This document shows positions 7,520 through 34,923 of a DNA stretch of 64,000 nt, piece after piece; within the stretch, counting starts at the first letter, position 1, and each line of letters starts with the position of its first letter. The stretch spans positions 22,792,967 to 22,856,966 of the forward strand of contig OY821744.1 of the NCBI GenBank assembly GCA_963682055.1, read 5' to 3'. Below the pieces are notes generated by a model. It had not been told where the DNA came from, searched no databases, and worked only from the letters and a program-made list of their open reading frames with translations. Source of the stretch: Primula veris (lineage: Eukaryota; Streptophyta; Magnoliopsida; Ericales; Primulaceae). Made by a program: the position numbers and the translations under genes.

Positions 7520-7691
7520 ATCAATCAGTTTCTTGTAAAAGTGTTTTTGTGTTATTTTTCAAAATAAGCTAGCTAATTGTCTCAGCTAGTCGTGTATTTT
7601 CAGTTGGTCGTGTATTTTCAGTCAGTCACGTATTATCTTGAATGTAATATATAAGAATAATAATAATATATGTCTTTTGTTTGTAGAAACC

Positions 7692-10600
7692 ATGAATTTC
7701 CAATCTAGCAGTACGCATGATCAGGACTTATGTTTAATGGACAGTGCAACAACTCATAGCATATTCCGAGTTAAAAAGTTTTTTGAGTTCATAGAACCTC
7801 TTATTGCCAACGTTAATACGATTAGCGGACCAACAGACATCATAGAAGGCTCCGGAAGAGCATATGTGATACTACCTAAGGGTACAAAGATCCGCATTGA
7901 ATGTGCATTATACTCTCCCAAGTCAAATAAAAATTTATTGAGTTTCAAAGATATTCGCAGTAGTGGATATCATATTGAAATTGGAAATGAGGAAGATAAA
8001 GATTATCTCGATATAACAAGTTTGGTTGCAAGCCAGAAGCTTGTACTTGAAAGACTAAGTACTTATTCTTCAGGGTTATATTACACAATAATAAATTGTA
8101 TTGAATCATACTCTATAGTATACCCGAAGTGCATCGAACCATTGCACCAAAAGAACACTAAAGCGCAGCACCTAAAGTGCACCACTAAAACGCAGCACCT
8201 GAAGTGTATTAGGGAATAGCACCAGAAGTGCACCAAAGTTCAAAAGGTTCATTCTGATTCTTGAACTTTTGTCCTTTGGCATGATTGTCTCGGTCATCCG
8301 GGTTCAACCATGATGGACCGAATAGTAGAAGGCTCAAACGGTCATTCATTAAGGAACCTGAAGATTCCATCGCCTAGTGAGTATACATGTGTTTCTTGTT
8401 CAAAGGGTAAATTGATTACGAAACCATCTCCTCTAAAAATCGGTGTTGAATCACCAAGTTTTTTGCAACGCATTCAAGGAGATATTTGTTGACCAATTCA
8501 TCCATCATGTGGTCCATTTCGTTATTTTATGGTCTTAATAGATGCATAATCTAAATGGTCTCATGTCTGCTTACTATCAACGAGAAACGTTGCATTTGCT
8601 AGGCTTTTAGCTCAAATCATTCGTTTAAAATCTCTGTTCCCCGAATATCCAATTAAGTCAATACGTTTTGGCAATACTGGTGAATTTACTTCTCAAGCAT
8701 TTGATGACTATTGCATTGCTGTAGGGATAGATGTTGAACATCATGTCCCACATACCCATACACAAAATGGCCTAGCAGAATTTTTCATGAAACGCATACA
8801 ATTGATATCCAGACCATTACTCATGAAGTCTCAATTAGCATAGTCAGCGTGGGGGCATGCCGTTCTACACGCTGCATCCTTAATTCCTATTCGCTCATCT
8901 GTCCATCATGTTTAATCCCCACTACAGCTAGTATCTGGTCACCAACCAAATATATCTCATTTACGTATTTTTGGGTGTGCAGTATACGTTCCAATATCAC
9001 CACCACAACATACTAAAATGAGTCCACAACGACGCCTAGGTATCTATGTTGGTTTTGATTCACCATCTATTATTAGATATCTTGAACCGTTAACCGGTGA
9101 TTCGTTTAAGGCTCGTTTCGCAGATTGTCAGTTTGATGAGACTCTTTTCCCACCATTTGGGGGAGTAAACTCTAAACACATAGCAGAACATGAATTTGAA
9201 TGGAATGTACCATCATTGTCTCATCTGAACCATCGTACCAGACAAAGTGAATTAGAAGTTCTGAAAATCATTCACTTGCAAAACATTGCTAATAATTTAC
9301 CCGATGCATTTACTGATACATATAAAGTATTAAAGTCACATGTACCTGCATCTAACACTATGGCACATATTGATGTTCCTGTAAGGGAACCAATAATGAA
9401 TGAACCCAAACCATGCCAGAAGCGTGGAAGACCCGTGGGTGCAAAAGATAAATTGCCCCGAAAAAGGAAAGAACTGAGACCAAGTAATCCTCCAGCAGAG
9501 GAAAATTTTCTAAGTAATTCTCCTGAAGAGAAATTACAAAGAACCCCGGAAGGAAGTAAAAAAGTCGAATAAAAATGCCCCGGAAGAAGCTCCACAAGTA
9601 ACCTCATCCCAACCCCCAAGACAAATTCCTCGTAAAGAGGTTATATCTCCTGAAGAGATATAAGTACCTGAAAACAATAATGAGATCTCAATATTTTATG
9701 GGGAGAGATGGGATGTCGTCGACAAAAAATTTGCATATGTTATGGCTCTAGAAATTATTGATAATAAGGATCCTGAACCAACTTCCGTCGAAAAATGTCG
9801 ACGTTGAAGTGATTGGGCAAAATGGAAAAATGCTATTGAAGTCGAATTAAGCTCTTTAGTAAAATGGAAAGTATTTGGACCAGCAGTCCTGACACCAGAA
9901 GATGTCAATCTCATAGGGTACAAATGGGTATTTGTACGAAAACGTAACGAACACAACGAAGTCGTAAGATATAAAGCATGACTTGTTTCTCAAGTTTTCT
10001 CCCAAAGACCTGGGATTGATTACGAAGAAACATACTCTCCAGTAATGGATGGGAGTACTTTTCGATTCTTGATCAGTTTGGCAGTCGCTGAACGATTGGA
10101 AATGTGTCTAATGGACGTGGTCACTGCATATTTATATGGGTCATTAGATAGTGACATCTATATGAAAATCCCTTAATGTTTTAAATTACCTGAAGCAAAA
10201 GATAGGAGTTTACACTCAATTAAACTTCAAAGATCGTTATACGGCTTAAAACAGTCAGGACGCATGTGGTATAACCGGCTCAGTGATTATCTCTTAAAAG
10301 AAGGTTATGTACATAGTCTGATATGTCCATGCATTTTTATCAAGAAAACGAATTATGGGTTCGCTATTATTGCAGTTTATGTGGATGATATAAATATAAT
10401 TGGGACTCCTGAAGAGATTTCAAAGGCTGCTAATTACCTAAAAGTGGAATTTGAGATGAAAGATTTTGGGAAAACAAAGTATTGTCTCGGTTTACAAATC
10501 GAGCATACATCTAATGGTATATTTGTTCATCAGTCTAACTACACTGAAAAGGTACTTCGCCAGTTTTATATGGACAAAGTACACCCGCTAAATTCCCATA

Positions 10601-11357
10601 TGGTTGTTAGCTCACTCGATATCAAGAAAGATCTCTTTCGTCCAAAAGGCAAGTAAGATGATTTACTAGGCCCTGAAGTGCCATACTTAAGTGCAATTGG
10701 TGCCCTCATGTACCTTGCAAATTGCACTAGACCAGACATTGCATTCTCTGTCAATCTACTTGCAAGATATAGTTCAGCACCAACTCGAAGGCATTGGAAT
10801 GGTGTTTAAACATATATTGCGATATTTACGAGGAACCGTCGATTTAGGATTTATTTTACTCGAACAATGGAAATGGAAAATTAATTGGATATGCAGACGC
10901 TGGCTATCTGTCAGATCCACATAATGCTAAATTACAAACCGGATATGTTTTTACATATGGTGGTACTGCAATATCTTGGCGTTCTGTAAAACAGACATTA
11001 ACCGCAACTTCTTCGAATCATTCGGAAATACTTGCAATTCATAAAGCAAGTCGAGAATGTGTTTGGCTAAGATCAATGATACATTATGTACAAGAACAGT
11101 CAGGCTTGACTTCGACAAAAATTCAGCCAACGTTACTATATGAAGATAATACAACGTGTATTATGCAGATTCGAGGAGGATATATTAAAGGGGATCGAAC
11201 AAATCATATTTCTCCAAAATTCTTTTATACCCACGATCTCCAAAAGAATAGTGAAATAGACGTTCGCCAAATACGATTAACAGAAAATTTGGCCGACTTA
11301 TTTACTAAGCCTCTTCCTGCAACAACGTTTAAGGAAATGATATACAGTATTGGATGA
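7692..11357 (+). pseudogene. copia pol pseudogene (protease, integrase, RT, RNase H)
   Basis: Readable blocks in order: aspartic protease MDSATTHSIF (about 7737); the pre-integrase H...CxxC segment ending CVSCSKGKL (about 8280-8410); integrase core with NGLAEFFMKR (about 8770); RT with SLYGLKQSGRMWYNRL (about 10230-10280) and the catalytic YVDD box (about 10378); the later RT block GALMYLANCTRPDIAF (about 10700); and RNase H with TATSSNHSEILA, LYEDNTTCI and ENLADLFTKPLP up to 11357. Stops interrupt it at several points, for example near 8218, 8491, 8550, 9570, 9981, 10174 and 10656. Frameshifts occur as well, as around 10790-10925. It cannot yield a polyprotein. Confidence 0.92.
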
Positions 11358-12488: not shown

Positions 12489-12497
12489 TTAAAACAA

Positions 12498-12580
12498 GGG
12501 TAAATTTTGGATTGGTCCATGAAAACACAAGTATTTAAGGATTGGTCCATGAAACTGAAACTAATTAAGGATTGGTCCAT
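12498..12580 (+). repeat. left terminal inverted repeat of MULE-1
   Basis: Contains three direct copies of GGATTGGTCCA at 12509, 12539 and 12569, exactly 30 bp apart. It pairs with the right end; the left appears to have one 30-bp unit fewer. Confidence 0.88.
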
Positions 12581-12769
12581 TTGCTGACATCATTAAAAAA
12601 TTGCTGACGTCATCATAACACAATTAAAAAAAACAGAAACTTTTTTTCTCTCTCTCTCCTCTCTCTCTCATCTCTCTCTCCGAAAACCCTGAAACTTTCT
12701 CTCTTTAAACCGCCAACAAATCCGGCTATCAAACTGAAAAACCTCTCTTCGTTGATTTCAGAAAACAAC

Positions 12770-15700
12770 ATGGTGAAGGTAAGTTTATTAATCGTTGTTT
12801 TTATTAAAACAGTCTGAAAAATATATAAATTAATTTAATTAGGGTAAGTTCAGTGACATTTTACATAAATTAGGGTTATTAATTGTGTTTACCCATTTTA
12901 TATATAAATTAGGGTTCATACTCTATTGTTCATACTCTATTTTTAAATAAAAATTGCGATTCTAATAATATTTGTTGAAAATATTATTCAGACTGTTTAT
13001 ATTCAGTTGTTTTGGGAATAAAAACATAAAACAGCCTGGAAAAAAGTATTCAGACTGTTTATATTCAGTTGTTTTGGGAATAAAAACATAAAACAGCCTG
13101 GAAAAAAGTATTCAGACTGTTTAGTGATTCAGACTGTTTAGTGATCTATATGTAATTGTTGAAAATATTATTCAGACTGTTTATGTTTAGTGATTCTAAT
13201 AAAATTCGTATTCAGACTGTTTATATTCAGTTATTTTCGTAATAAAATTGGTAAAAATAGTATTCAGACTGTTTATGTTTAGTGATTCTAATAAAATTCG
13301 TATTCAGACTGTTTGTATTCAGTTATTTTCGTAATAAAATTGGTAAAAATAGTATTCAGACTGTTTTTATGTTTAGCGATTCTAATAAAATTGGTACTCA
13401 GACTGTTTATATTCTAATAGGATTATGTTGGAAAAATACTCAGACTGTTTACTTTCTCTGTATTTTAATATGTGCATGAGTTTACACAGACTGTTTACAT
13501 ACTTTTTGTTATTGTTTTTAGAAACATATTGCCATCAAACATTCGACAAACCCCAAAAACCAACCATCTGACACCACAAACCTCAAAAAAGGCAACATAC
13601 AGTACAAATCAAACTTGGTTACTGTAATCAAGTTCTTTGTCGAAACAAATTTCAATCCGGCACAACTTGAATTAGTTAAGCAACACTGTCCGTTCTGGGA
13701 ATTGATCAATGCTTCAAGAAATGGAGAATTAACCACTAACCAGGCTAGGAAAAGTGATAAAGAATTGTATCAGATGGCCTTGAGGTACGACCGAAACTCA
13801 CAGGCCCTTAAGCTAGGTAGATTCACAGTTCCAATAGAGAGAGACTGTGTGCGTGACATTTATGGAATTTCTGGTAATGCTGAAAATCCAATAGCTCTCA
13901 CAAGCTTTGCTAAAAACCAAGAAGCCTACCACAGCTTTGTTGAAAGATGCTTTTCAAATAAACTCAACAAATCCAACCTAACCAAAACAGCTATCGTAAA
14001 GGCATTAAACGAAGCATTGGTATTAACAACAAAAGTTGGTAGAGAGGACGTCGTCCGACTGGTAACATTGTACATGCTAAATGCATTTTTCTTGACGGTG
14101 AGCGGCATGACCATAGCATTGGGGTATTTGAAAATAGTTGCCGGTGACATCAAAGAGATAAAGGAATATGATTGGGCAACTCATATACATGAGAAGCTTA
14201 TGGAGTCGCTCAACAACCAAGACCCAAGATCACTGTCCACGTGTCTACTCACGATACCGGTACAATAAAATTACTTCTCAAGGCCTTTTTTTATTAGTTC
14301 AGACTCTTTTTTATAAGTTAGTACTCTTTTTATATGTTCAGAATGTTCTTAAGTTGTTTATTATTACATCAGACTCTTTATTTATTTCCATTATAAATCA
14401 GACTGTATTATTACTATCATAAATCAGACTGTATTAAATCTCAGTATGTTTAAAAAGTATCAAAAAATCTCAGACTGTTTTTACAAAACTGTAAAAACAA
14501 TACTAAAAACAGTCTGAATAATATATTATTAAATCTCATACTTTATTGTTACTATCATTTAAGACAATATACTAAAAAACAGTCTGAATCATTTAAAAAA
14601 CAGTCTGAATCATTTAAGACAATATATTATTGCTCTATCTATCTCAGACTGTTTTTACAAAAACTGTAAAAAGAGTCTGAATAATACTAGAAACAGTCTG
14701 AAAATAGATTATTAAAAATCATACTGTATTGTTACTATCATTTAAATCTCAGACTGTATTCTTAAAAACTGTATTTCCATCTGTACAGTATGTCATCCTT
14801 GAAAAGTTCAATATTTCAAACCCGGACATGACAAAAGAATCTCAGACTGTTTTTACAAAACTGTAAAAACAGTCTGAATAATACTAAAAACAGTCTGAAT
14901 AATATATTATTAAATCTCATACTGTATTGTTACTATCATTTAAGACAATATACTAAAAAACAGTCTGAATCATTTAAAAACAGTCTGAATCATTTAAAAA
15001 CAGTCTGAATCATTTAAGACAATATATTATTGCTCTATCTATCTCAGACTGTTTTTACAAAAACTGTAAAAAGAGTCTGAATAATACTAGAAACAGTCTG
15101 AAAATAGATTATTAAAAATCATACTGTATTGTTACTATCATTTAAATCTCAGACTGTATTCTTAAAAACTGTATTTCCATCTGTACAGTATGTCATCCTT
15201 GAAAAGTTCAATATTTCAAAACCGGACATGACAAAAGAAGCGTCCACAAAGGCTTTGTGTGTCAAATGGGACGTCTTTTCATTCTTCAAGTTGTGTTCCT
15301 CAAGGTTCACAATTGTAGACCTGTGCAATGAAAAGGTATAACACTATTTCTATACAATTGTAGACTGTTTTTATTCTATCTATACAATTGCTTCTAAAAA
15401 CCTTATCATTCTTTAAATTATCATCATAGGGATGTAGAAAACAATCAAAAAACCTCGTTATTTATGATGGTAAAAAGAAGCTACCTCCGAAACCAAAGCG
15501 ATTAACAGATGAGGAGTTGGAGAAAGAGATAGACGAAGATGTTGAAGATCCTCAGAATGTTTACTCTAGTTCAACAGAAGAGGAAGGCTTGAAAAACTCT
15601 GAAAATGAAGGCTCGGAAAACTCAAAAGAAGACTATGAGAGCGAAAATGATTCAGACAACAAATTTACCATCTTCCTTAGGAAACAATTCGGGACACCAA

Positions 15701-18700
15701 AAACTCCAAAATTCAATGAAATAATGGGAACATCTAAGAGCTCTGAATATGACGAGGGAGGTCCCTCTGGAGGTGGTGGCTGTTATAATTACAGTGCCGA
15801 TGATATGCATGTGAATGAAAGTCCAATTCACGAAGAGAGGAGAGAAGAAGAGTCCGAAAAAGAAGAGACCAAAGTGGCTGAATTGCAGAAAAACCTAGAT
15901 GAGGCAATTTTGCAAATTAAAGAGTATAAAGACCTAACAACCACAATGCAGAAAAGCATCAACGACCTTTGGAAATCTTTGGCTTTAGAAGAAAAATTAA
16001 AGTCCAAGTGGGTACCTGAGTGGAAACAAAAAATTGAACAAATGGTTGAGGAAAAAAAAATGCTCGAGAAGGAAATAAAAGGTAAACGCCATAAAATGCA
16101 ATTCAAACTCTTCCTCTCTTGTCTAATTTTTTTTCCATTAGCTTGGTTTCCCTAAGTCAGACTGTTTGTGTTATAGAAAAGGAGGAGATGATCACCAAAT
16201 ACCAAAGAATTGTCTCTGATCTCCAGCAAGAGGCAGATGTAGAAAAAAATAAAATGCGAAACAAAGAAGCCGAGATGAAGCAAAGAATGGAAAAATTGGA
16301 GAATGAAAAAAAGCAGCTTGAGGAAGACCTACAAGGTAAAGGTAAAGTACCTCTATTGTAATCTATTACTATTATAAATCAGACTGTATTAAATCTCAGT
16401 CTGTTTAAAAATTAAAAAATATCAATAGAATCTCAGACTGTTTTTACAAAAACTGTAAAAAGAGTCTGAATAATACAAAATTTATTTGAATATTAATGCA
16501 ACTATTTTGCATTCATATTGTATTACTAAAAACAGTCTGAAAATATATTATTAAAATCTCAGAATGTATTGTTACTATCATTCGTAATGTATTATTAAAA
16601 ACAGTCTGAATCCCTTTCTTTTGCTTAGTAAATTTCTTTCAATGAAATATATCAAATAGAAACCTCAGACTGTATTATTACTATCATAAATCAGACTGTA
16701 TTATTTCAATGAATTATTCAGACTGTTTTTCCTCTTATTGTTGCAGGGGGACATGAGCTAATAGAAGGGCTATACAATGATGCACAGGTGTATGCGGCAC
16801 ACGACTACTCACAAAAGTGTCGAATCGATGAAGTTATAACTGATGCTCTCCTAAATGCGGATATACAAACTCCACAGCTAGATTTAATCCGCAAAGAAAT
16901 TCTGGAAAGACTCGGTTATGAGTATGATGGTCCGGGATCCAATATTCTCCGAATCAGAGCAAGAACAGATAGGAGACCACCAGTGAAGTACACACCAAGT
17001 AAAATAGACTCTCCAACAAAAACCCAAGCAAATGAGAACCAGCTACGGAAACGTAAGCAAGCTGATCAAGATGACAAGTCTGAAATGGTCGCAGACGTAG
17101 GCGCTTCTGATCCGTTGTTGGAAAAACCAAATAAAAAACCAAAGGGTGGACGAACAGCAAAAAAGAGAGCATCAAAAAAGAAATCTCCTGTACTGGACGA
17201 CCAGGATGGCCAAGGCTATTTCCCACAAATCGACTTCAGTAGTCTAGTAGACCATGTACCCGACAAAACAGAGAGAGCACACGATATCATCACAAATAAA
17301 AACGAGAATGATATCACAACAAAGCTCCCTGACAACATCTTCAGCAAAATTCAAGAAATTCACAACGCAAATGGACCATTGTAAGTCAGACTCTTTTTAT
17401 TTTTTTGTTTATGATACAATTAGGTCTCACACTCTTTACATTTACCTCAGACTGTTTAAAACAGTATGAATTGTTTTAATGAAGACTGTTTTGTATTTAT
17501 GATACTTTTATATAGCTTGGACTCTTTTTAAATTTAGTTCAGACTGTTTTTATAGACTGTTCAGACTGTTTTTAGTTCTTTTTTATATAGCTCACTCTTT
17601 TTAAAAAATGATCAATTGTGTTTTTGTCAGACTGTTTAGTTCAGACTGTTTTTTGTTAGAAAGTTTAGTTCAGACTGTTTAGTTCAGAATGATAAATTTA
17701 GTTCAGACTGTTTTTTTATACAAGCCCCATACTGTTTTTTAATAGCTCAGACTCTTTTTTATATAGCTCAGACTCTTTAAAAAAAATGATCTATTGTGTC
17801 TCTTTTATATACAACTTTTAATGTTTTTTTTTAACTCAGACTGTTTTGTTGTCATACTGTTTTTTTCAATCTCATACTGTTTTTTCAATCTCAGACTGTT
17901 TTATCTCAGACTGTTTTGTTGTCAGACTGTTTTTTTCAATTTCAGACTGTTTTGTGCTTACTATAAAATTTTAATTTACAGTGCCGCCTTGTTCTCAAAA
18001 CTCGGTTCAACCAATAAGGATTACTTCATCACTCTCAACGACATCTACAACTTAATTAATGGCCAGTTGCTATGCTGTAATGTAAGTATACAAGGATCGT
18101 ACAATTTAATTGCTTGCTTACAAGCTCTTGTACTCAGACTCTTTCTAAAACTTGTCCTTATCGCAGATCATAAATGGGTATACCCACATATTGAGGCAAG
18201 AGTACCAGGCAAAGTCTACAAAAACATTCAAGATATTGACCTCCGTATTATGGGTAAAAACACAAACTCTTTTTATGTTGTCAATGCATCACTTTGTTTC
18301 TTTACAAAAAGAGTCTGAGATTTTATCTTAAACCTTTTCGTTGTTGTTTGGTTTGTAGTTTTTTTTAAAAGACAGGAAAAGATACGAGGATGAGCTCGAT
18401 GCGAAAATCACCGATAAGCTGAGGAAGCACGTTCAGAACGGATACAAGTTATTGTTCTTCCCTATTAACTCGAATAGGAACCGACCCATTGACGTAGAGG
18501 CAGACCACTGGACTCTATTGGTTCTGAACGTCGAATCGAAGAAGTGGGGTTTTTATAATAGCAACATACCTCCTTGCAATATCAACTTACCAGACCCTTA
18601 CCTTGATGACGCCAAACTAGTGGTAATTCAGACTCTTTTTAAAATACAACAGTCTGAATTTGCAAAAACTACCCTCTTCATCTTTTAAATGTATATATTT

Positions 18701-19083
18701 TTTGTTATGTTACAGATGGCCTTTGTACAAGAAAAATTGAAAATGATAGCTGATGTGCCCTCCTTCTCACTTGATTCACAAGATGGGTACACGTTAGACG
18801 TTGTAACAGACTGTCCCTATCAATGAGCCACGTAAGAAAAATATGTGCCTACTGATATTCAGACTGTTTTTACTATTCATATAAATCAAAATTAATTTTA
18901 CATGTTTTATTTTTTTACAGATCAGACTGTGCATTGTATGTGTGCTACAACATGGAGACAATCATCAATGGTGAACCTGTCACAAGAGAGACGACTTCCG
19001 ACAAGATACTAGAGTTCAAGGCCAAGATAATAACGAGAATCGTCAATCGATACATTCAGTCTGAATTAACAAAAACAGTTTGA
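12770..19083 (+). pseudogene. Ulp1-like (C48) cysteine protease gene of MULE-1, one in-frame stop
   Basis: Inferred exons: 12770-12778 (only Met-Val-Lys), 13522-14259, 15189-15335, 15430-16081, 16177-16335, 16747-17380, 17982-18081, 18167-18253, 18359-18622, 18716-18831, 18921-19083. Phases agree throughout and give about 1022 codons. The N-terminal third resembles the region found in Ulp1-bearing plant transposons (PFWELINA, LGRFTVPIERD). The middle is acidic, then coiled-coil (EKEEMITKYQRI), then basic (KKPKGGRTAKKR, a likely nuclear signal). The C-terminus is a SUMO-protease fold: VLW, catalytic His in DHWTLLVLNV, and catalytic Cys in SDCALYVC. Odd points: TGA at 18824-18826 lies between His and Cys, and the expected catalytic Asp is Asn (GFYNSN). 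Introns are full of TCAGACTGTTTTT. No autonomous protease is expected unless the stop is bypassed. Confidence 0.8.
14470..15240 (+). repeat. direct duplication inside intron 2 of the Ulp1 gene
   Basis: The block at 14470-14841 is repeated at 14842-15240 with small length changes. The repeat includes the first about 50 bp of exon 3 and its acceptor (CTGTACAG). The upstream copy is therefore a decoy exon start (14789-14840) that is cut off by the next repeat. The second copy carries the full exon. Confidence 0.85.
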
Positions 19084-19959
19084 TTAATGTAAAAATTAGT
19101 TGTAAACAGTCTGAATGTAAAAATAGTTCCATTATTTGTAAACAGTCTGAATAGAAAAGAGTTCTATTATTTTGTTCGAATATGATTTCGTTTCTTTTCC
19201 ATTTTCTTTCGCCAATATATTTTTCAATGAATCTTAAGACTGTATTATTACTATCAATCATAAATGTATTATTAAAAACATATAAAAACGTATTTATACT
19301 GTATTACAAAAAACAGTCTGAAAAATATTATTAAATCTCAGACTGTATTATTACTATCATTTATACTGTATTATTATAAACAGTCTGAATCTCAGACTGT
19401 TTCAGTACTCACACAATTCAGACTGTTTTAAAGATATCTATTGACTAAAAAAAAAGAGTCTGAATAATATGATTGATGTAACTAGTTTGCTTCACTTTAT
19501 TTCTTCCGTTAATATATTTCAATGAAATATAAACAGTCTGAAAATATATTATTAAATCTCAGACTGTATTATTACTATCAATTATACTGTATTATTATAA
19601 ACAGTCTGAATCATTTACGACAATATACTAAAAAAACATCATATGACATGTATCATTAGAAACTCAGACTGTTTTTATGTTCATTAGAGTATCATACTGT
19701 TTTCAGAAAGAATCTCAGACTGTTTCATTACTCACAATTCAGACTGTTTTAAAGAAGTCTATTGACTAATAAAAAAGAGTCTGAATAATATGATGATTGA
19801 TGTAACTAGTTTTCTTCGTTTTCTTTATTACAATCGTAAAAATAAGACTGTATTATTAAAAACAGTCTGAAAACATATAAACAGTCTGTATTACAATCAT
19901 AATCTCAGACTGTTTTTAATATAAAACTGTAAATCAAAACTGTAAACAGTCTGAATAAA

Positions 19960-20050
19960 TACCTGTGCACAAACGAATCCATCAGAAAAAATACCTGTGC
20001 ACAAAAAACATAACAGCAATTGATCTCTAAAACAGTCTGAAAACAGTCTG
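19960..20050 (-). repeat. duplicated fragment of the transposase gene start
   Basis: The string CGAATCCATCAGAAAAAATA, followed by CCTGTGCACA and CAATTGATCTCTAA, repeats what is found at 22875-22950 over the start codon of the transposase gene. It is a copied scrap of that 5' end, lying downstream of the gene. Confidence 0.7.
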
Positions 20051-20255
20051 AATAAGAATAATAATAAAACAAACGCAATTGATCTGTAAAAAGAACTCTA
20101 AATAACTGATTTGTAAAACAGTATGAATACAAGAACCTCATATTGTATTATTAATATCACAAAATCAGACTGTATTATTAAAAACAGTCTGAAAAAGGCC
20201 AACATCATATAAAACTAAAAAAAGTCTAATATACAACTAAAAAATCTATTCACGA

Positions 20256-22883
20256 TCATCCTTCAGAAGAAAGCTTCTCTTTGCACGTCCGTTGATTATG
20301 ATTTGCATATTTCTTGCACCTCCCGCATTGATTAGCTTTCTTCTTTTTCGCGACTGGATTTGCCTCACCACCTGATGGAATACGCTTCTTTTGAGGCCTT
20401 CCCGGAGGCCTTGATGTTTCTGGAGGTTTAATGTTTGACTCATTAATCAATTCAGAATCTCGCCAAATAGAACTAGGGACTGGGTTGATTGGCGTATTGT
20501 ACGATCTTCGATAAATGTCCACAAAGAACCATTTTTCAACAAAATTCTCCATAGGCAGTTTGTCCCTAGAAATACACAAAACTGCATGTTGGCACGGGAA
20601 CCCAGTCCTCTTCCATTCATGACATGAGCATTGCCGATGTCCCAGGTCCACGTATTCGGATGGAGCTGACAGCACTTCATATTTCCAAAACCCTGACCTC
20701 ACAACCAAAAACGACAGACCGTTGTGAATGAATGTGTCCCATTTTTCTTGGTAGAAAGGACACAGAACACCTTTCCATGTTGCTGCAAAAAAATAAAACA
20801 TAACCAAAAATCTCTTAAAAACGTATACCTAGTAAAAACAGTCTGATATGATGACAAACACGAATTCACATAACAGTCTGAGTTACCACAAACCTGCTTT
20901 GATTCTTCTTTCATCGAACCATTTCATCAATTTCAATCTTAGCTTATCAATCAGTTCAGTGATAGGTAATTCTCTAATATCATTGATCCAATTATTGAAT
21001 GATTCCACAGCATTGGAAGTTGTCTCACCATATCGCGACTTTACACATTATGCTTCGGCCCATTTCATAGGATTGCAATTCTCCATAAATTTATCTATTT
21101 TACGACCCCCCATATTGCGCAACAACTTCATATTCTGTTCAAACAAAGGAATTGTAGCAGAAGTTGCACAAGTTTGCAACAAATTAATAATTTCAGTCCT
21201 TTTTGTTCCATCACCCCCACTAAACTTCAATTTCAAATTATCCTTCAAATGGCGTAGACAGTAATAATGGTCTGCGTTGGGAAAAATCCGAGACATACCA
21301 TCCAACAACCCAATATGTCTATCCGAGAAAAATGTCAAAGGACGGTCATCACCTATAGTTAACTTCAGTTGTTCTAGAAACCAACCCCAATTATCAATAT
21401 TCTCACTGCTAACAATAGCAAAAGCAAGTGGATACAACCCTGTAACATTAAAAAAATCAAAAACAGTCTGAAAATAAAAAACAGTCTGAAAATCAAAAAC
21501 AGTCTGAAAATCAAAAACAGTCTGATAACAAAAACAGTCTGATAACAAAAACAGTCTGATAACAAAAACAATCTGATAACAAAAACAGTCTGATAACAAA
21601 AACAATCTGGTAACAAAAACATTTTTATAAAACAGTCTGATATAACAAAAGTTGTATATAAAACAGTCTGATAACAACACAATTTAGGCTTGTATAACAA
21701 AACAGTCTGAACTAAATTTAAAAACAGTCTGAGTTATATAAACCATTAATGTAACAAAAAACAAACAAAAAAGAGCTTGAAAAAGGAAAAACAAACCTTT
21801 ATTGCCATTCTTGCCGACTGCGGACAATAAAACACCCTTATATTTTCCTTTTAAAAATGTTCCGTCAATGAAAAGAATGGGGCGAACATCCCTAAACCCT
21901 TTTATGCAGCCATGAAGAGAGAAAAATACCCTTTTGAATTGATTTGAACCATTCCCATCCTTATCAAGTTCCAGGACACTGCGACTCCCAGGATTTGTCG
22001 ATTCTAAACCCACAAAATACCTTTCTAATTGGTTGTATGATTCATCGATATCCCCACTGTGCATTCCGCTAGTCATTTGGACAGCATTCCAAGCTTTATA
22101 ATAGCTTATCTCCAACCCATAACCAATCCTTAAATGCGATATTATAGCAGAAGGGGCTAAATTTGGATTTTCCCTCACATATTCATCCATTATTTTCGAT
22201 ATGAGCTTGCTATTTACATGCTTGTTCAGAGCACCTGGGGCTAACTTTTTGCATGTATGTTGTGATTCAAACTTTCTAATCTTAAATTGTTGGTCTGAGG
22301 TCCACACACCAGCATATATGTACCAGCTACAGCCAATACTATCCCTCTCTTCACAATAAGCGACCACCCTAACCGAGTTATTCCTTCCAAACCAGGGGAC
22401 ATGACCTTCATATATACAAAATTTCCGTAATGACTCTTTAAAGTGATCAGCACAACTAAAAAACTGCCCAACCCCAGTTATCAAGTTTGCCCACTCACTC
22501 GTTTTATAAACCTTCCTAACAGCTAAACTAGAACCTGCATCACACCAATCATCATCATCCGAAAATTCAGAACAATCAGCACTTATTTCCTTCGAAGTAC
22601 CAACAGTGCAAGTGGATACAGTCCCAACAAAAACTAGAATCTCTACTATTTTTTTTCCCAACACGTTAAACAGAGCGACCATATCTTTCAACTCATCATC
22701 CGATCTCAATAAACATCGCTCATCTCTAATTGCTAAGTAGGTTAGAGACACTGAATCCAAATTCAAGCTAAACCTATTACTTATTGTATGTAATAACTCC
22801 GCATAGGTCATACGCTTATTCAGAGCAACAGGGACACATTGATCATTATATCGACAATACATTACTAAATCAAACGAATCCAT
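20256..22883 (-). pseudogene. mudrA-like: MuDR-type transposase of MULE-1, one in-frame stop
   Basis: Exons 22883-21797, 21439-20894 and 20782-20256 join in phase to 719 codons. I chose the Met of MDSFDLV because it directly precedes the N-terminal PB1-like domain (about 1-85). A MuDR N-terminal domain follows, then the MULE DDE core: first Asp in LFIDGTFLKGKYKG, second in FFSDRH, Glu in TSNAVESFNNW. A SWIM zinc finger (CSCHEWKRTGFPCQHA) and a C-terminal zinc knuckle (CGRCKKYANHNQRTC) complete the family architecture. A single TAA (21050-21048) interrupts the frame just before KSRYGETTSN, upstream of the third catalytic residue, so the product would lack Glu, SWIM and knuckle. Intron 1 carries thirteen motif copies, all in the sense direction. 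Confidence 0.88.
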
Positions 22884-22914
22884 CAGAAAAAATACCTGTG
22901 CACAAAAACAGTAT

Positions 22915-24045
22915 GAAGTATTAAATTTTAATAATAAACGCAATTGATCTCTAAAAACCTAACAAAAACCTACATTGTGTTACAGAAACAGTCTGAGTTA
23001 TTATATAACAAGAATACAATAGCTCAGACTGTTTATAATAACTCAGACTGTTTTCTGTAACTCTAGAATACAATAGCTCAGACTGTTTTTAAAAACAGTC
23101 TGAATACAAGAAAAAACAGTATGAACTCTTGAATTTTAACAATACAAAATCATACAGAACAGTCTGAATTATTATAATAAACACTGTTTTTTAAAACAGT
23201 CTGAATACAAGAAAAAAACAGTATGAAGTATTGAATTTTAATAATAAACGCAATTGATCTCTAAAAACCTAACAAAAACCTACATTGTGTTACAAAAAAC
23301 AGTCTGAGTTATTATATAACAAGAATACAATAGCTCAGACTGTTTATAATAACTCAGACTGTTTTCTGTAACTCTAGAATACAATAGCTCAGACTGTTTT
23401 TAAAAACAGTCTGAATACAAGAAAAAACAGTATGAACTCTTGAATTTTAACAATACAAAATCATACAGAACAGTCTGAATTATTATAATAAACACTGTTT
23501 TTTAAAACAGTCTGAATACAAGAAAAAAACAGTATGAAGTATTGAATTTTAATAATAAACGCAATTGATCTCTAAAAACCTAACAAAAACCTACATTGTG
23601 TTACAAAAAACAGTCTGAGTTATTATATAACAAGAATACAATAGCTCAGACAACAAATAATAACTCAGACTGTTTTCTGTAACTCTAGAATACAATAGCT
23701 CAGACTGTTTTTAAAAACAGTCCGAATACAAGAAAAAACAGTATGAACTCTTGAATTTTAACAATACAAAATCATACAGAACAGTCTGAATTATTATAAT
23801 AAACACTGTTTTTTAAAACAGTCTGAATACAAGAAAAAAACAGTATGAAGTATTGAATTTTAATAATAAACGCAATTGATCTCTAAAAACCTATCAAAAC
23901 ATGCATTGTGTTACAAAAAACAGTCTGAGTTATTATATAACAAGAAATACAGTAGCTCAGACTGTTTATTAATAACTCAGACTGTTTTCTGTAACTCTTG
24001 AATACAATAGCTCAGACTGTTTTTAAAAACAGTCTGAATAAATCA
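22915..24045 (-). repeat. 311-bp tandem array, about 3.6 copies, upstream of the transposase
   Basis: Units start at 22915, 23225, 23536 and 23847 (GAAGTATTRAATTTTAATAA), so the period is 310-311 bp. Each unit carries motif copies in both orientations and one 26-bp palindrome made of TCAGACTGTTTTT and its complement. The array lies between the transposase start and the right TIR, in the promoter position. Confidence 0.92.
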
Positions 24046-24349
24046 TACATTGTGTTAGAAAATTCTGATTTATTATTTATTATAATAAATCTCTAAAACC
24101 TAAATTCAGCAAAGCAATTTGAGCTAAACTCAGCAAGAAAAACGAAGCTAGCAATAAAAAAACAGTTTGAAGAGAGAGAACCTGTCTGTCGAGAGAGAGA
24201 GATATACAGAAATTTGATAAAATTCGTTCAGTGAGAGAGATATACAGCTAATAGTGTATATAGATGGTTTAGAGAGAGAGAGATGGAGAGAAACGGTTTA
24301 GAGAGAGAGAGATAGATACAACTGTTTAAAAAAACAGAATATGTATAAT

Positions 24350-24469
24350 ATATATAGTGGACCAATCCTTAATTAGTTTCATAAATAATGGACCAATCCT
24401 TAAATGAATTTTATAGCTGGACCAATCCTTAAATACTTTTGTTTTCGTGGACCAATCCTTAATTTTCTC
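24350..24469 (-). repeat. right terminal inverted repeat of MULE-1
   Basis: Contains four copies of TGGACCAATCC at about 24358, 24389, 24418 and 24448 (spacing 29-31 bp). Read inward it matches the left end through CCACGAAAACA and AAGTATTTAAGGATTGGTCC. Confidence 0.88.
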
Positions 24470-24478
24470 TTAAAACAT

Positions 24479-26169: not shown

Positions 26170-26560
26170 GAGTTTTTTGCTGAAATGGTACAGTGTCCAA
26201 AATCAATTCCCAGAATGGGCTACCTTTCTGTAATATTCCCAAAATGGTCTACTTTCGAAAAACGACCGATCGTAATGAATAAAACGACCGGTCGTTTTTA
26301 TCATTAACTCTCTGGAACAATTTGGACCAAAAACGATCGGTCGTTATGTACATTACGATCGGTCGTGTTTCAGACCAAAAACGATCGGTCGTTTTAGCAT
26401 AGCGATCGGTCGTTTTTGTGTTGTGTCACTGGAAGAATTTCTACTTAAAACGATCGGTCGTTTTATAGTAGCGATCGGTCGTTTTTAAGGTTTGCTCACT
26501 GGAACATTTTCGTTCCACACCGATCGGTCGAAATATAAAAACGACCGATCGTTTTTCTGT
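26170..26560 (+). repeat. left TIR and motif cluster of MULE-2
   Basis: The terminal about 110 bp is unique TIR (GAATGGGCTACCTTTCTG). A cluster of about a dozen ACGATCGGTCGTTTTT-type motifs in both orientations follows, up to about 26555. Confidence 0.9.
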
Positions 26561-26790
26561 TTCACTGTGTTAAAACCTCTTCCAAAACCCTAATTTCATT
26601 CATTCCACAAAATATATTCATCCTCTCTTCCAAAATCGCCTCCCTCTTTCCAAATCCATCAAAATTCCTCAATAAAACCTAATTTTCTATAAAAATATCA
26701 CCCAATTTCACCTATTATCCGTATAATCGATTATCGATTAATTTCGTTTCTTAGAAACCCTATTTTCTTCAAAACCCATTTTATTCAACA

Positions 26791-28128
26791 ATGGTTCGTA
26801 CGAAGAAAGCGTCACTCAACCTCGTTGATGAACATGAGGACGAGGTCGTGCCTCCACCACCTCGCCGTCCGGCTATTCCTCGTGCCCCACGCACCGGCTC
26901 CTCCACCGCTTCTCGCTCGGGCCCCGGTTCCTCTTCCGGCCCTCTTTCTCCTCTCTATCCACCCGAGATGGGTAAAAGAGGTATATTGACCAACTTCACT
27001 CTAGATATGCGTTTATTCCGTGAACGATTTGCCGCTCTAATGATAGATTTAAGTTTTTACAAACTCGATACTATCCTCACTCTTAAAGAGCCTTTTTACA
27101 AGGAAAATGTCTACGAATTTTATTATAACCTAGTTCTCGATAGGGATAATGATGGCGCACTCCGCTTGCGTTCATCGTTTAACCGACAACCTTTCGTTTA
27201 CGGTATAGACCGTCTACGAACTCTCTTACGCCTAGATAGCGGCGGTTTCCATGAGTCTAGTGAGGAACTTTGTGAGACTCTCGAGATCGACCACTTCAAT
27301 GATCTAAAAGATGAAATTTTTCATCCCATTCATCAAAATCGCTCCAACAAAGCCCATGGCCTTCTATTCCGTAACAAACTAGCCTACCACATCCTTTCTC
27401 ACATAGTCCTCCCTCATACCTCCAATTTCACGGATGTTACCAATGAGTACATCTTTCTTCTTGGGTGCATCCATCGCCGAGTCCGACTCGACTTTGCTAC
27501 CCTCATCTTCCTTAAGATGGACTCGCTTAAAACGAAATCCAAAAATGGGCTACCATACGGTGCCTTGATTTCGGCCATCTTAAAGGACCTAAACCTCGTT
27601 CCCGGTGGAACATTGTTCAAAAACAAGGACAAACATGTTTGGGACACTTCCTATCTTTCCCAAATGTCCATAAAATTCCATAATACCGACAAGTCCATAA
27701 CTTGGTCCGGTAAGCGGGTATCCGGCCCCAACTATGCTCCTCTCACCCCCGAAGAGGAAGAATACGTCGGCCCTAAGCCAACACCACAAGCCGCACGTGA
27801 GGATTTCTCCTCCGAGTCTCTTCCCCCCACCGATATTCCTACATCCTCTCGTCCCTCTCGACGACAAGGAAAAGCTCAAGTAGGATCTTCTCACCGTCCT
27901 CCGCGCAACGAACAATTCTACGACGATCTCTACATCGACCAATATCAAAATGCGCGACTTCACCGACGCATGTTTCGTGCCATGAACACATGTCAAGAAG
28001 ATTTGGACGAAATCGATAGGTTGAGCGCTGAGCAAAGGGCGAAATTCCACGGCTATTTTCCCGATCTTGCCGGGCCCCATGACAACAACGAAGACGAAGA
28101 GGATGATGCGACCTCCCACCGCGACTAG
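26791..28128 (+). CDS. plant-transposon-associated protein, copy 1
   Basis: An unbroken 445-codon single exon starting MVRTKKASLNLVDEHEDE. A basic, proline/serine-rich N-terminus (1-70) is followed by a conserved globular region. That region has FVYGIDRLRTLLRLD (about 130), a block with SNKAHGLLFRNKLAYHILSH (about 185-205), FTDVTNEYIFLLGCIHRRV (about 215) and KSKNGLPYGALISAILKDL (about 250). The tail is low-complexity and acidic, ending EDDATSHRD. The central blocks resemble the family Pfam calls putative plant transposon protein (PF20167); its biochemical role is not known. It sits just inside the left TIR of MULE-2 and is transcribed inward. High similarity to copy 2 with intact frames implies recent duplication or retained constraint. 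Confidence 0.8.
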   Translation: MVRTKKASLNLVDEHEDEVVPPPPRRPAIPRAPRTGSSTASRSGPGSSSGPLSPLYPPEMGKRGILTNFTLDMRLFRERFAALMIDLSFYKLDTILTLKEPFYKENVYEFYYNLVLDRDNDGALRLRSSFNRQPFVYGIDRLRTLLRLDSGGFHESSEELCETLEIDHFNDLKDEIFHPIHQNRSNKAHGLLFRNKLAYHILSHIVLPHTSNFTDVTNEYIFLLGCIHRRVRLDFATLIFLKMDSLKTKSKNGLPYGALISAILKDLNLVPGGTLFKNKDKHVWDTSYLSQMSIKFHNTDKSITWSGKRVSGPNYAPLTPEEEEYVGPKPTPQAAREDFSSESLPPTDIPTSSRPSRRQGKAQVGSSHRPPRNEQFYDDLYIDQYQNARLHRRMFRAMNTCQEDLDEIDRLSAEQRAKFHGYFPDLAGPHDNNEDEEDDATSHRD

Positions 28129-29631
28129 GCGGATATCATTTTATTCATTTTCATGTTTTTTTTTTATGTTGTCAAGGGGGAGAAATACCTCTCTTTTTGT
28201 TTCATTGTATTTCTTTCCCGTTCTACGAACTTCGTTTGTTTTTGATGTAATAAGTAGCATGATTATATTATGAATTGTGTTTATGTTGGTTTTAAACATG
28301 GTTGTTATAATCTATGACGTTGCGAGAATGTGCTTCATAATATGCGTTTTTATCTTATGATATTGCATTTAGTGCGCTTAAATTGCTAGTTGGCTAGTTG
28401 ATTGGGTTATTTATATGTCTTTCATTTGTGGCGATTGACCTTTTTTTAGGCAAAACTATGGCCGATTTTTCGCGTGCATATAGATCTTTCGTTAACCTTT
28501 ATCGGTTTTGCTTTGTTATACTTCGTTTTAAATCTGTTATGACATTTACTTGTTCTTTTCAAAGAAATCTTTTATCCAAGTAAAACGTTATCTACACATT
28601 TCGGTTATACTTCTTTAAGCAAAACGTTATGTACCCATTTTGATGATAACAATATTTGTAGAACATGATAAAAGCTCGTTTTGCGTACTAATCATTTATC
28701 GAGTGTGTTAAAGGTTCTAAATAATAGAATGCGTAATTACCAAGCCAATGGTTCAAGCGGAACCTCAATCGGATTTGAAACGCATTATTTACGAGATTTC
28801 GAAGTTTGTCGAGAAAACCGAAACATTGAAGCACAAAAAACGACCGATCATAAAGCTAAAACGACCGATCGTTTTAGATGAGATTTCTTCCAGTGAGCCA
28901 AGATATAAAACGACCGATCATTTTACAGAAACGACCGGTCGTCTGTGTAAAAACGATCGGTCGTTTTTCACAGTCGACCGATCGACTGTAAAGAATTTAT
29001 AGAACGAAGAATTTTTGGCACTTTTCGACACTGATTTGGCAAAAAATATATAAAAACATGATCCTTTTTCAACATGATCCCTTTTTGAACATGATCCCTT
29101 AAAAAATGATGTAAATTAATATGTTTAGTACATCGGATTGTCCGGAAGATTTATAGCAAAAATATTATCACATAAAATGATGTCGTAAATTAATATGTTT
29201 AGTATAAGATGTGTAGGTGACGTTTTACTAAACATCCGATTTAAAACATCCGATTTAAAACGAAGGTAAACAAAGCTAAACGATTAAGGAAAACGAACGA
29301 TCAAATGCAAGCGAAAAATTGGCCATAGTTTTGCCTAAAAACGGTCAATCGCCACAAATGAAAACAACACAAATAACCCAATCAACTATAGATATATATA
29401 CGCACAAGTTATAATAACATCAAAATCGCATTTGTGGAATTATAAATACGCAATCTCACAACGTCATACAATTTAACATGTAATGATAAATAGCAACATA
29501 AAAAAGATTCATAACATAATTGCAAAGCGTTTGCTACTTATTACATCAAAAACAACGTAGTTCGAAAGAAAATGAAAAACAACGGAAATACAACGCAAAA
29601 AACATCATTAAAAACATAAAAAAATAACCGC
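28129..29631. other. centre of MULE-2 between the two convergent paralogues
   Basis: The 3' flanks of both genes are inverted copies of each other; GGCAAAACTATGGCCGATTT at about 28449 faces its complement at about 29310. The middle holds a motif cluster (28840-28990). A short direct repeat of CATGATCCCTTTTT lies near 29058-29105. No coding region. Confidence 0.7.
28840..28990. repeat. internal ACGACCGATCGTTTT motif cluster
   Basis: About seven copies of the MULE-2 motif in both orientations, including AAAACGACCGATCGTTTTAG and AAAACGATCGGTCGTTTTTC. It is followed by GAAGAATTTTTGGCACTTTT, which recurs in direct orientation at about 31471. Confidence 0.88.
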
Positions 29632-30981
29632 CTAGTCGCGGTGGGAGGTCGCGTCGTCCTCTTCGTCTTCGTCTTCGTCATTGTTGGGACCGGCTAGATC
29701 GGGAAAATACCCGTAGAACTTTGCCCGTTGCTCGGCGCTTATCCTATCAATTTCGTCCAAATCTTCTTGACTTGTGTTCATGGAGCGAAACATGCGTCGG
29801 TGGAGTCGCCCATTTTGATATTGGTCGATGTATAGATCGTCGTAGAATTGTTGGGTGCGCGGAGGACGGTTGGAAGATCCGACTTGAGCTTTTCCGCGAC
29901 CTCGAGTGGGACGAGAAGAGGAAGGCATTATGTGAGACGGGGGAAGGGACTCGGAGGAAATAGGCACATCCTCACGAGCGGCTTGCGGTGTGGCCTTAGG
30001 GCCGACATATTCTTCCTCTTCGAGGGAAAGAGTAGTATAGCCGGGGCCGGACACCCGTTTATCAGACCAAGTAATGGTCTTGGCGGTAGTGTTGAATTTT
30101 ATTGACATTTGGGCAAGATAGGAGGTGTCCCAAATGTGTTTGTCCTTGTTCTTGAACAAGGTACCACCGGGGACAAGGTTTAAGTCCTTTAAGATGGCCG
30201 AAATCAAGGCACCGTAAGGTAACCCATTCTTGGATTTCGTTTTTAGCGAATCCATCTTAAAGAAGATGAGTGACGCGAAGTCAATTTTGACTCGGCGATG
30301 GATGCACCCTAGGAGGAAGATGTACTCATTGGTAACATCTGTGAAGTTTGAGGTATGGGGGACGACAATATGGGAGAGGATATGGTAGGCTAATTTATTT
30401 CGGAAGAGAAGGCCGTGGGCTTTGTTAGAGCGATTGTTGTGGGCGGGATGAAATAGCTCATCTTTGAAATCGGTAAAATTAACGATGTTGAGCATTTCGC
30501 AAAGTTCGTCATCTTGCTCGTACACCCCCTCGGCATCGAGGTGTAGAAGATTTCGTAAACGGTCTATACCGTAAACGAAGGGTTGGCCATTAAACATTGA
30601 ACGCACGCGGAGTGCGTTATCATGATCCCTATCAAGAACTAGGTTATAGTAAAATTCATATATATTTTCAATGAAGAAAGGCTCTTTTAGAGTAAGAATT
30701 ACGTTGAGTTTTTGGAAGTTTAAATCTTGCATAAGAAGGGGAAAACGTTCCATAAATAAAGGCATGTCTATGGTAAAGTTAGTCAATATAGCTCTTTTAC
30801 CCATTGTAGGTGGATAGAGAGGAGGAAGAGAGCCGGAAGAGGCACCGGGGCCCGATGGTGGAGCGGTGGAGGGGCCGGTTCGTCGAGCGCGAGGAACACG
30901 GGGGCGGCTCGGGGACGGAGGCACGTAGTCGTCCTCATGTTCGTCGACGATGTGTGATTGAGCTTTCTTGGTGCGAACCAT
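29632..30981 (-). CDS. plant-transposon-associated protein, copy 2
   Basis: An unbroken 449-codon single exon. I take the Met at 30981 (MVRTKKAQSHIVDEHEDD) because it aligns with the start of copy 1; the frame stays open upstream through motif repeats that are not protein-like. It has the same order of blocks as copy 1 (FVYGIDRLRNLLHLD, SNKAHGLLFRNKLAYHILSH, FTDVTNEYIFLLGCIHRRV, acidic EDDATSHRD end). It lies convergent to copy 1 and downstream of the transposase. PF20167-like by recognition only; function unknown. Confidence 0.8.
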   Translation of the reverse strand: MVRTKKAQSHIVDEHEDDYVPPSPSRPRVPRARRTGPSTAPPSGPGASSGSLPPLYPPTMGKRAILTNFTIDMPLFMERFPLLMQDLNFQKLNVILTLKEPFFIENIYEFYYNLVLDRDHDNALRVRSMFNGQPFVYGIDRLRNLLHLDAEGVYEQDDELCEMLNIVNFTDFKDELFHPAHNNRSNKAHGLLFRNKLAYHILSHIVVPHTSNFTDVTNEYIFLLGCIHRRVKIDFASLIFFKMDSLKTKSKNGLPYGALISAILKDLNLVPGGTLFKNKDKHIWDTSYLAQMSIKFNTTAKTITWSDKRVSGPGYTTLSLEEEEYVGPKATPQAAREDVPISSESLPPSHIMPSSSRPTRGRGKAQVGSSNRPPRTQQFYDDLYIDQYQNGRLHRRMFRSMNTSQEDLDEIDRISAEQRAKFYGYFPDLAGPNNDEDEDEEDDATSHRD

Positions 30982-31244
30982 GGTTGGATTATAAAAAAAA
31001 TTAAGGTTTTGGGAAAATTGGTATTTTGAAAAAAAAGGGTTTTTAAGAAACGGAATCAATCGATTGTTGATTATAAGTATTAATAAGAGAATTGAGTTAT
31101 ATATTTGTAGATATTTGGGATTTTTGATAAATTTTGATAGAAAGAGGCGATTTTGAAAGAGAGAGATGGTTGATATAATTGTTGAATTAGTTGAATGAAA
31201 TAGAATTAGGGTTTCAAACGAGTTAAAAGGCTGAAAAACAGGAA

Positions 31245-31480
31245 AACGATCGGTCGTTTTGTACTTACGATCGATCGTTTCTGGACAAAATTCTTCCAGT
31301 GAGCACACATAAAAAACGACTGGTCGTTTTTGCATAACGATCGGTCGTCTGTGTAAAAACGATCGGTCGTTTTTCACAGAGATCGATCGTTTTTGGACAA
31401 AATTCTTCCAGTGAGCACACATAAAAAACGACTGGTCGTTTTTGCATAACGATCGGTCGTTTGTGTAAAAACGAAGAATT
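31245..31480. repeat. motif cluster with 112-bp tandem duplication upstream of copy 2
   Basis: A 112-bp unit (GATCGATCGTTTYTGGACAA ... GTGTAAAAACGA) starts at 31269 and again at 31381. Each holds several ACGATCGGTCG or ACGACTGGTCG motifs. This is the promoter side of copy 2. Confidence 0.88.
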
Positions 31481-31807
31481 TTTTGCACTTTAATTTTCGA
31501 CACTGAAGAAAAATATATAAAAATACTAAAATATATATAAAATCAATCAAATATATATATTTATGTTAATTGCACTTATTTATTTATGTTGTTCATTCTA
31601 CTTTTTATGTTAATTGCATTTATTTATTTACTCTCATACTTAACAAACCAGTTTATCTTCTCAAAAAACAGTATGAAAAAACACTGAGAATAAATATATA
31701 TATTTCATCTTAAAAAAGACAATTACAAGCGGAAAATTAAAATAGTACAAGATACATATTGTCTCGTTGATAAGCGTACAATTACAAGCGGACAATTACA
31801 GCTAAAA

Positions 31808-34480: not shown

Positions 34481-34674
34481 ACGGTAAAATTAACAATTTT
34501 ACTCAAATAATACTCCAACAACACAAAATATTGAGCTTTTACCTGTTTTGGAAGAGATCTGAGATTTGCCCTAAAATGATATAAGAGCTCTGTTTTTTTT
34601 ATTTTTACAGTGGTAATGAGATGAGTACAGTGGTCTGTGGAAATGAGATGAGTTTTTTAAGTACAAGTATTTCC

Positions 34675-34923
34675 GAAAAACGACCGATCGAAATGTACGT
34701 AACGACCGATCGTTTTTGTCTGAAAAACGACCGGTCGTATTGTCCAATTCGACCGATCGTTTATTGTCCAAATTGTTCCAGAGAGTTCAATAATAAAACG
34801 ACCGATCGTTTTAACCATTTCGATCGGTCGTTTTTCGAAAGTAGACCATTTTGGGAATATTTCAGAAAGGTAGCCCATTCTGGGCTTTAACTGTCCACAG
34901 TAGACCATTTCAGCAAAAAACTC
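34675..34923 (-). repeat. right TIR and motif cluster of MULE-2
   Basis: Mirror of the left end: motif copies at about 34677-34832, then the unique TIR (CAGAAAGGTAGCCCATTCTG ... CAGCAAAAAACTC). The perfect 9-bp duplication follows. Confidence 0.9.

Follow-up and report, generated by a model that had tools for sequence, protein, structure and literature searches.

A short word filling the non-coding DNA of a Primula veris Mutator-like element is a predicted family-specific landing site for the element's DUF1985-like/Ulp1 protein

The Arabidopsis VANDAL elements, which are Mutator-like elements (MULEs), include two families whose proteins, VANC21 and VANC6, are described in excerpts of the published work as targeting short, family-specific words in non-coding element DNA (PMC5735166). 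These words (YAGTATTAY and AGTTGTCC/AC) lie in introns, intergenic DNA, and terminal non-coding DNA and are bound by VANC (PMC5735166, in excerpt), and expression of VANC21 or VANC6 strips methylation from the whole element (excerpts of PMC5735166 and PMC10398659). Parts of a 2026 review add that some VANC genes (Kaonashi) carry an Ulp1 domain, with motif-specific hypomethylation (PMC13317346), and an unpublished crystal structure of VANC21 is mentioned for a 2021 meeting in a passage of PMC8756742. The VANC-motif literature that we found concerns Arabidopsis thaliana, with copies from A. lyrata, and we claim no priority. Work by Sasaki in 2022 reportedly deals with motif density, helical periodicity, and at least ten systems in Arabidopsis. 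This work presents an analysis of a 64,000-nucleotide stretch of the Primula veris genome (the window, on contig C5 of a 436.5-Mb genome), in which a complete MULE, here called family A, is filled with copies of one 13-mer, TCAGACTGTTTTT. The element carries a transposase gene and a VANC-like gene that encodes a DUF1985-like exon and an Ulp1 part. Motif-saturated MULEs with VANC are already known, and this is therefore not a new kind of element; a first-pass annotation of the window, made from the letters alone, had found no close MULE precedent for the pattern, which the Arabidopsis VANDAL MULEs do show (PMC5735166, in excerpt). The notable feature is a set of five words, all from one genome, whose distribution tracks the tree of the presumed reader protein, with a one-base step between sister clades.

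Exact copies of TCAGACTGTTTTT number 47 across the window (19 on the plus strand and 28 on the minus strand), every one of them within positions 12985-24040, and 104 of the 108 sites found with up to one mismatch lie in the same interval. Within the element (12500-24470 scanned), there are 47 exact copies, 106 sites with up to one mismatch, and 143 with up to two, compared to 0 exact copies and a mean of 0.16 one-mismatch sites (maximum, 3) in 50 dinucleotide shuffles. The exact copies fall in the introns of the VANC-like gene (23 copies), the introns of the transposase gene (9 copies), the intergenic DNA (5 copies), and the DNA to the right of the transposase start (10 copies), with none in the 5,229 nucleotides of modelled exons and none in the leftmost 270 nucleotides. 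The modelled exons contain a single one-mismatch site, located at the 3' end of exon 11. The first-pass annotation was thus right that one short word fills the non-exonic DNA, and the near-absence from exons that it described holds as a count, at chance level rather than as active depletion. Synonymous shuffles predict 0.27 one-mismatch sites in the VANC-like gene (1 observed) and 0 in the transposase gene (0 observed), and since this places the exons at chance level, we read the pattern as strong non-exonic enrichment and not as special avoidance of exons.

The copies form arrays or looser groups in VANC-like intron 1 (12977..13493, plus strand), intron 2 (14287..15180, both orientations), intron 5 (16375..16735, unstranded), and intron 6 (17385..17974, plus strand), between the two genes (19095..20181, unstranded), and in transposase intron 1 (21458..21735, minus strand, in part as 17-bp units). 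Upstream of the transposase gene, an array of 311-bp tandem units (22904..24040) holds the motif in both orientations together with variants of the A2 type described below. Both orientations also occur in the VANC-like introns as a whole (31 plus and 17 minus sites at one mismatch), and 44 of the 106 one-mismatch sites fall outside both coding spans. An 11-base core, TCAGACTGTTT, is common to the 143 sites, with information near background on either side of it. Tandem units of 17, 21, 62, 92, and 311 bp are present locally; they leave the core as a whole unexplained.

The element itself occupies 12498..24469 (11,972 bp), its left end being taken from copies elsewhere in the genome and its right end from the inverted match. 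The left end sequence was recovered in 27 of 31 close copies (four yielded no left end), and the DNA outside it differs between copies. As is usual for the MULE superfamily, a 9-bp target-site duplication flanks the element (TTAAAACAA at 12489..12497 and TTAAAACAT at 24470..24478, both read on the plus strand), with 8 of 9 bases in agreement. The left terminal inverted repeat (TIR; 12498..12581, plus strand) is 83% identical over 87 columns to the right end, where the inverted match spans about 24387-24469 of the terminal region (24358..24469, minus strand). The interval first proposed for the element, 12985..24040, does hold all 47 exact copies and falls short of the true ends, and the accompanying remark that the motif stops inside the TIRs is borne out, as the terminal repeats contain no TCAGACTGTTTTT. 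The ends carry instead a word of their own, AAGGATTGGTCCA, with three copies on the left (12507 with two mismatches, 12537, and 12567) and four exact copies on the right within 24358-24469. At up to two mismatches, this word is confined within the element to both ends, and its placement makes it a candidate transposase site.

The VANC-like gene (12770..19083, plus strand) was modelled as 11 exons with GT..AG boundaries and a frame that is open except for one stop; exon limits were set from splice signals and open frames alone. Exons 1 to 6 lie at 12770-12778, 13522-14259, 15189-15335, 15430-16081, 16177-16335, and 16747-17380, and exons 7 to 11 lie at 17982-18081, 18167-18253, 18359-18622, 18716-18831, and 18921-19083, giving a predicted protein of ∼1,022 codons. 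The in-frame stop, in the Ulp1 exon, is private to the window copy (1 of 84 copies of the site). Exon 2 (13522..14259) is the DUF1985-like exon; among 31 copies its ratio of non-synonymous to synonymous changes per site (pN/pS) is 0.37 (27 changes are synonymous, 36 are non-synonymous, and 3 introduce stops), and, judged from these substitutions, it is shown to be under purifying selection. The Ulp1 (Peptidase_C48) part (18167..19083, plus strand) matches PF02902 with an E value of 4.7e-9 and 36.8 bits, above the cutoff of 20.7, as computed on the spliced protein with the in-frame stop written as X. Within 18359-19083 it reads YNS at the place where we take an Asp to be expected after the catalytic His of Ulp1, and the family C locus L039 (4790-5254; see below) also reads YNS.

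The transposase gene (20256..22883, minus strand) was modelled as three exons (22883-21797, 21439-20894, and 20782-20256), with one in-frame stop in the window copy. Its product contains PB1, DBD_Tnp_Mut, MULE, and SWIM domains (PF03108, E value of 7.6e-7; PF10551, 8.3e-12; PF04434, 3.1e-6), the last three being the domain set of the MULE superfamily. Together with the PF02902 match, this upholds the initial description of the element as a MULE with an Ulp1 gene. The Ulp1 gene and the transposase gene lie on opposite strands, as the Ulp1 gene does relative to the transposase in Kaonashi (KIU) and other Ulp1-bearing VANC genes of non-TIR MULEs (PMC13317346 and PMC2528002, both in excerpt). The window element also resembles VANDAL21 (Hiun) with VANC21 and VANDAL6 with VANC6 in combining a transposase with a DUF1985-domain protein (the DUF1985 match being below threshold here) and in having short non-coding words, often in tandem arrays, that differ between related families (PMC5735166, in excerpt). 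It differs from these two in having other words, two genes (no VANB was seen), an Ulp1 C terminus, and TIRs, and word binding is a prediction here. Compared to Kaonashi, it has TIRs, and here the tree of the presumed reader exon can be matched to at least five words within one genome.

Across the genome, exact TCAGACTGTTTTT occurs 9,878 times, compared to 103 times for the reversed control, so that the word is not simply equally common everywhere. Nor does one recent tandem expansion account for it, given the common core, the near-background flanks, and its presence in all 30 close-copy pieces (3.7 kb including flanks, with the window's own among them), each of which holds 21 to 42 one-mismatch sites. 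A genome search with the DUF1985-like exon gave 150 scored places from 192 candidates; by hand count, 86 of the 150 show identity of 85% or more across at least 225 residues, and several are identical, from which we conclude that family A was recently active. The 5' region ranges from 1,004 to 1,213 nucleotides in 27 copies, which indicates that the word arrays grow and shrink. A minimal derivative of 1.3 kb (C1:4387527-4388856) has ends 89% and 94% identical to those of the window element, together with a word array (16 exact 11-mers), and it shows no match to the transposase or to the DUF1985-like/Ulp1 protein. Going by this one example, ends plus array may be all that a passenger needs.

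To follow the word beyond family A, 18 further stretches were read from the more distant places of the exon search. Three stretches at 66 to 91% identity carry word A, and five at 43 to 55% identity carry word A2, mostly TCATACTGTTTT, which is one base from the window's word. Word B (GCATACACAATA) is found in two stretches at 33 to 35% identity, word C (AAGTGCATCTAGTTCAG) in two at 27 to 28% identity (clearly in L039), and word D (TGACAATCTAAT) in five at 28 to 33% identity. Words B, C, and D are absent from the A and A2 loci and from each other's loci even at one mismatch, and the A word is absent from the B, C, and D loci even at two. A tree of 21 exons was built, with L048 assembled from two matched pieces and L055 entered under "none". 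When each locus is labelled by its commonest word, every one of the five words occupies exactly one side of a branch, with bootstrap and approximate likelihood ratio (SH-aLRT) supports of 97/96 for A, 100/99 for A2, 100/100 for B, 100/100 for C, and 100/99 for D. Five word changes suffice for six states (five words plus "none"), which is the minimum. Close relatives share words by descent, and the weight of this result therefore lies on the difference between clades of the same layout.

The other words are likewise enriched over their reversed controls: A2 counts 1,851 versus 47 (part of which must sit in family A copies), C 541 versus 0, and D 119 versus 5. Of the word sites, 0 of 29 for B (L040), 1 of 64 for C (L039, up to three mismatches), and 0 of 133 for D (five loci) fall in coding DNA, with approximate coding limits for all three families and, for D, only the one exon treated as coding. 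As with VANC words, then, each is short, specific to a family, and concentrated in the non-coding DNA of its cognate element. For word D, the association was checked using TGACAATCTAATTA, for which 100 of 119 sites were listed, and 40 low-identity exons (up to 38% identity). Among the listed sites, 70 of 100 lie within 10 kb of a DUF1985-like exon, compared to 0.2 on average, and 3 at most, under random placement, and the word adjoins 11 of the 40 exons at ten loci, five of which had not been used to define D. By hand count, 32 of the 70 near-exon sites are at these five new loci; the remaining 30 listed sites lie elsewhere. One candidate role for the word, as a lure for CHG methylation, was discarded as not general, since word A has four CHG cytosines (those followed by a non-G base and then G) and word B has none. 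The likeness between the A2 word CAGTATGA and the VANC21 word (YAGTATTAY), at 7 of 8 bases, was also set aside, as a rough estimate puts its chance occurrence at about one in five. Separately, C-word sites recur at ∼28.5-kb steps over much of one stretch (G000, C2:2001699-2361030), a pattern suggestive of a segmental tandem duplication that includes a C-type element.

On balance, we consider it probable, at roughly three chances in four, that the non-coding TCAGACTGTTT(TT) copies serve the element's own DUF1985-like/Ulp1 protein as family-specific landing sites, and this protein is predicted by analogy to strip silencing marks. The word is taken as a landing site because gene content, word placement, and family divergence all fit the VANC/Kaonashi scheme. 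By analogy with VANC21 and VANC6, the DUF1985-like protein would read the word, and its binding would remove methylation over the whole element, with the Ulp1 part supplying or recruiting an activity. With sites packed into almost all of the non-coding DNA, the protein could coat the element; the exons would stay free of the word because they are constrained. By reading a private word, such a protein would switch on members of its own family, among them derivatives that lack genes, and leave the rest of the genome closed.

Several observations weigh against this reading. The DUF1985-like exon matches PF09331 below the Pfam cutoff (E value of 0.006; 17 bits versus a cutoff of 35.1), three of the eight members of alignment A1 match it at an E value below 0.1 (best, 0.0047), and the family B exon gives no DUF1985 match. 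When the spliced 1,022-residue protein was compared to a protein database presumably holding few plant entries, none of the 7,987 best candidates reached an E value of 0.001, and neither the exon nor alignment A1 found a convincing match in the PDB (best E values of 0.47 and 0.28, respectively). AlphaFold2, run on the single DUF1985-like exon, returned an unusable fold with a confidence score (pLDDT) of 41. The proposed VANC likeness is one of layout, word placement, and family divergence, and not of direct sequence comparison with VANC21. True TIRs also set the window element apart from classic VANDALs and non-TIR MULEs, in which the ends are degenerate or lack such repeats. However, an excerpt of PMC6446971 lists TIRs of 46-174 bp for the VANDAL group, so the TIRs need not exclude the element from that group. 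In family B, no Ulp1 part was found in the 10 kb read.

The word data have weak points of their own. Word C is weak in L053, with 1 exact copy and 6 one-mismatch copies, and in L055 no word stands out clearly. Words A and A2 overlap, as the A2 loci contain 1 to 3 exact A 12-mers each and the window element contains 12 exact A2 12-mers. In the tree, groups B and C consist of two rows each and drew a long-branch warning from the program. Helical phasing is a feature of VANC targets; in the window element, three of the four tests for it failed to reach significance (p values of 0.52 to 0.87), the fourth, on opposite strands, giving an uncorrected p value of 0.018. The first-pass annotation had further raised the question of whether motif positions are conserved while the surrounding DNA drifts. 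In the alignment of 31 copies, they show no significant extra conservation over the surrounding intron, with 207 of 1,480 circular shifts giving a value as low. A difference in minor-allele fraction that had looked promising (0.0154 versus 0.0296) was unsupported once a consensus mask and circular shifts were applied (0.0180 versus 0.0281). Finally, the transposase gene and the DUF1985-like gene are linked, and the tree is unable to separate the two as reader.

This last point bears on the strongest alternative, in which the word is a site for the transposase or a host factor acting in transposition or transcription, with no part in anti-silencing. CACTA/Spm elements offer the model, with many subterminal TNPA sites bound by an element-encoded protein, and TNPA also counters methylation. 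Linkage to the word is as close for the transposase as for the DUF1985-like gene, and sites are dense toward both ends, just inside the terminal repeats. Yet no copy of the word occurs in the terminal repeats, where AAGGATTGGTCCA is found instead, and introns well away from either end are full of it. In the precedent of similar gene layout, moreover, it is the VANC protein that uses the words (PMC5735166, in excerpt). TNPA sites, for their part, are subterminal only, and the CACTA/Spm transposase and reader are unrelated to those of the window element. We therefore hold this explanation, one of three that the first-pass annotation had offered, to be unlikely.

A little less likely still is that the word is a selfish micro-repeat, spreading through slippage, unequal exchange, or gene conversion where DNA is unconstrained and read by no protein. 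In its favor, local tandem units exist, array length varies between copies, and motif positions are not significantly conserved. Such spreading accounts less readily for 143 sites that share an 11-base core between near-background flanks, for the two orientations, and for commonest words that track protein clades, with sister clades A and A2 one base apart. Self-spreading may nevertheless be the mode by which arrays grow. A role in splicing or RNA processing, suggested by the resemblance of TCAG and the following T run to an acceptor context and by the arrays' position in introns, is very improbable: the word stands in both orientations in the VANC-like introns, many sites lie beyond both coding spans, and the 1.3-kb derivative keeps its array while matching neither protein.

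The window holds a second complete MULE (26170-34923), which has a perfect 9-bp duplication (CAAAATAGA) and ends that are 86% identical over 251 columns. Its genes are two of the PF20167 (Transposase_32) type and one for a MULE transposase, whose frame is open over 893 codons. Its word, CGACCGATCG, has 31 copies (one mismatch allowed) in four non-coding clusters, compared to a shuffle mean of 0.4, and 0 copies in the open reading frames as counted from presumed start codons. The word is CpG rich, and the element's observed-to-expected CpG ratio is 1.31. Neither PF20167 frame gives a DUF1985 match at an E value of 0.1, and blastp of one of them against the window's DUF1985-like exon gives an E value of 0.73. 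This element could represent the same strategy arising independently. It is conceivable, if doubtful, that motif-addressed anti-silencing is a general MULE strategy with several kinds of reader, including DUF1985-like proteins for at least five words and an unrelated PF20167 reader of CGACCGATCG.

Farther along, positions 60614-61427 hold a 21-bp array of the family C type word TGAACTATATGCACTTTTA, and TGCATCTAGTTCAG has 34 sites at up to three mismatches in the 60- to 62-kb region. Because of this array and these sites, a third word family is probably also represented in the window, by a fragment or a derivative. Pieces of an Argonaute-like gene with long open stretches lie at 56467-59704 (Piwi, E value of 2.9e-95 in 58196-59704), and Copia-like retroelement pieces were recognized by eye at 7590-11354.

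If the non-coding words are indeed landing sites for DUF1985-like/Ulp1 proteins, VANC-type sequence-specific anti-silencing would be at work in a 436-Mb genome other than that of Arabidopsis thaliana. The families would then form a natural series in which to address the open question of how a word and its reader change in step, with sister clades one base apart in an 11-base core and deeper clades without an evident common word. Protein-word pairs from one genome would allow direct mapping of recognition residues, and several non-cross-reacting pairs could be used to aim demethylation at chosen plant sequences.

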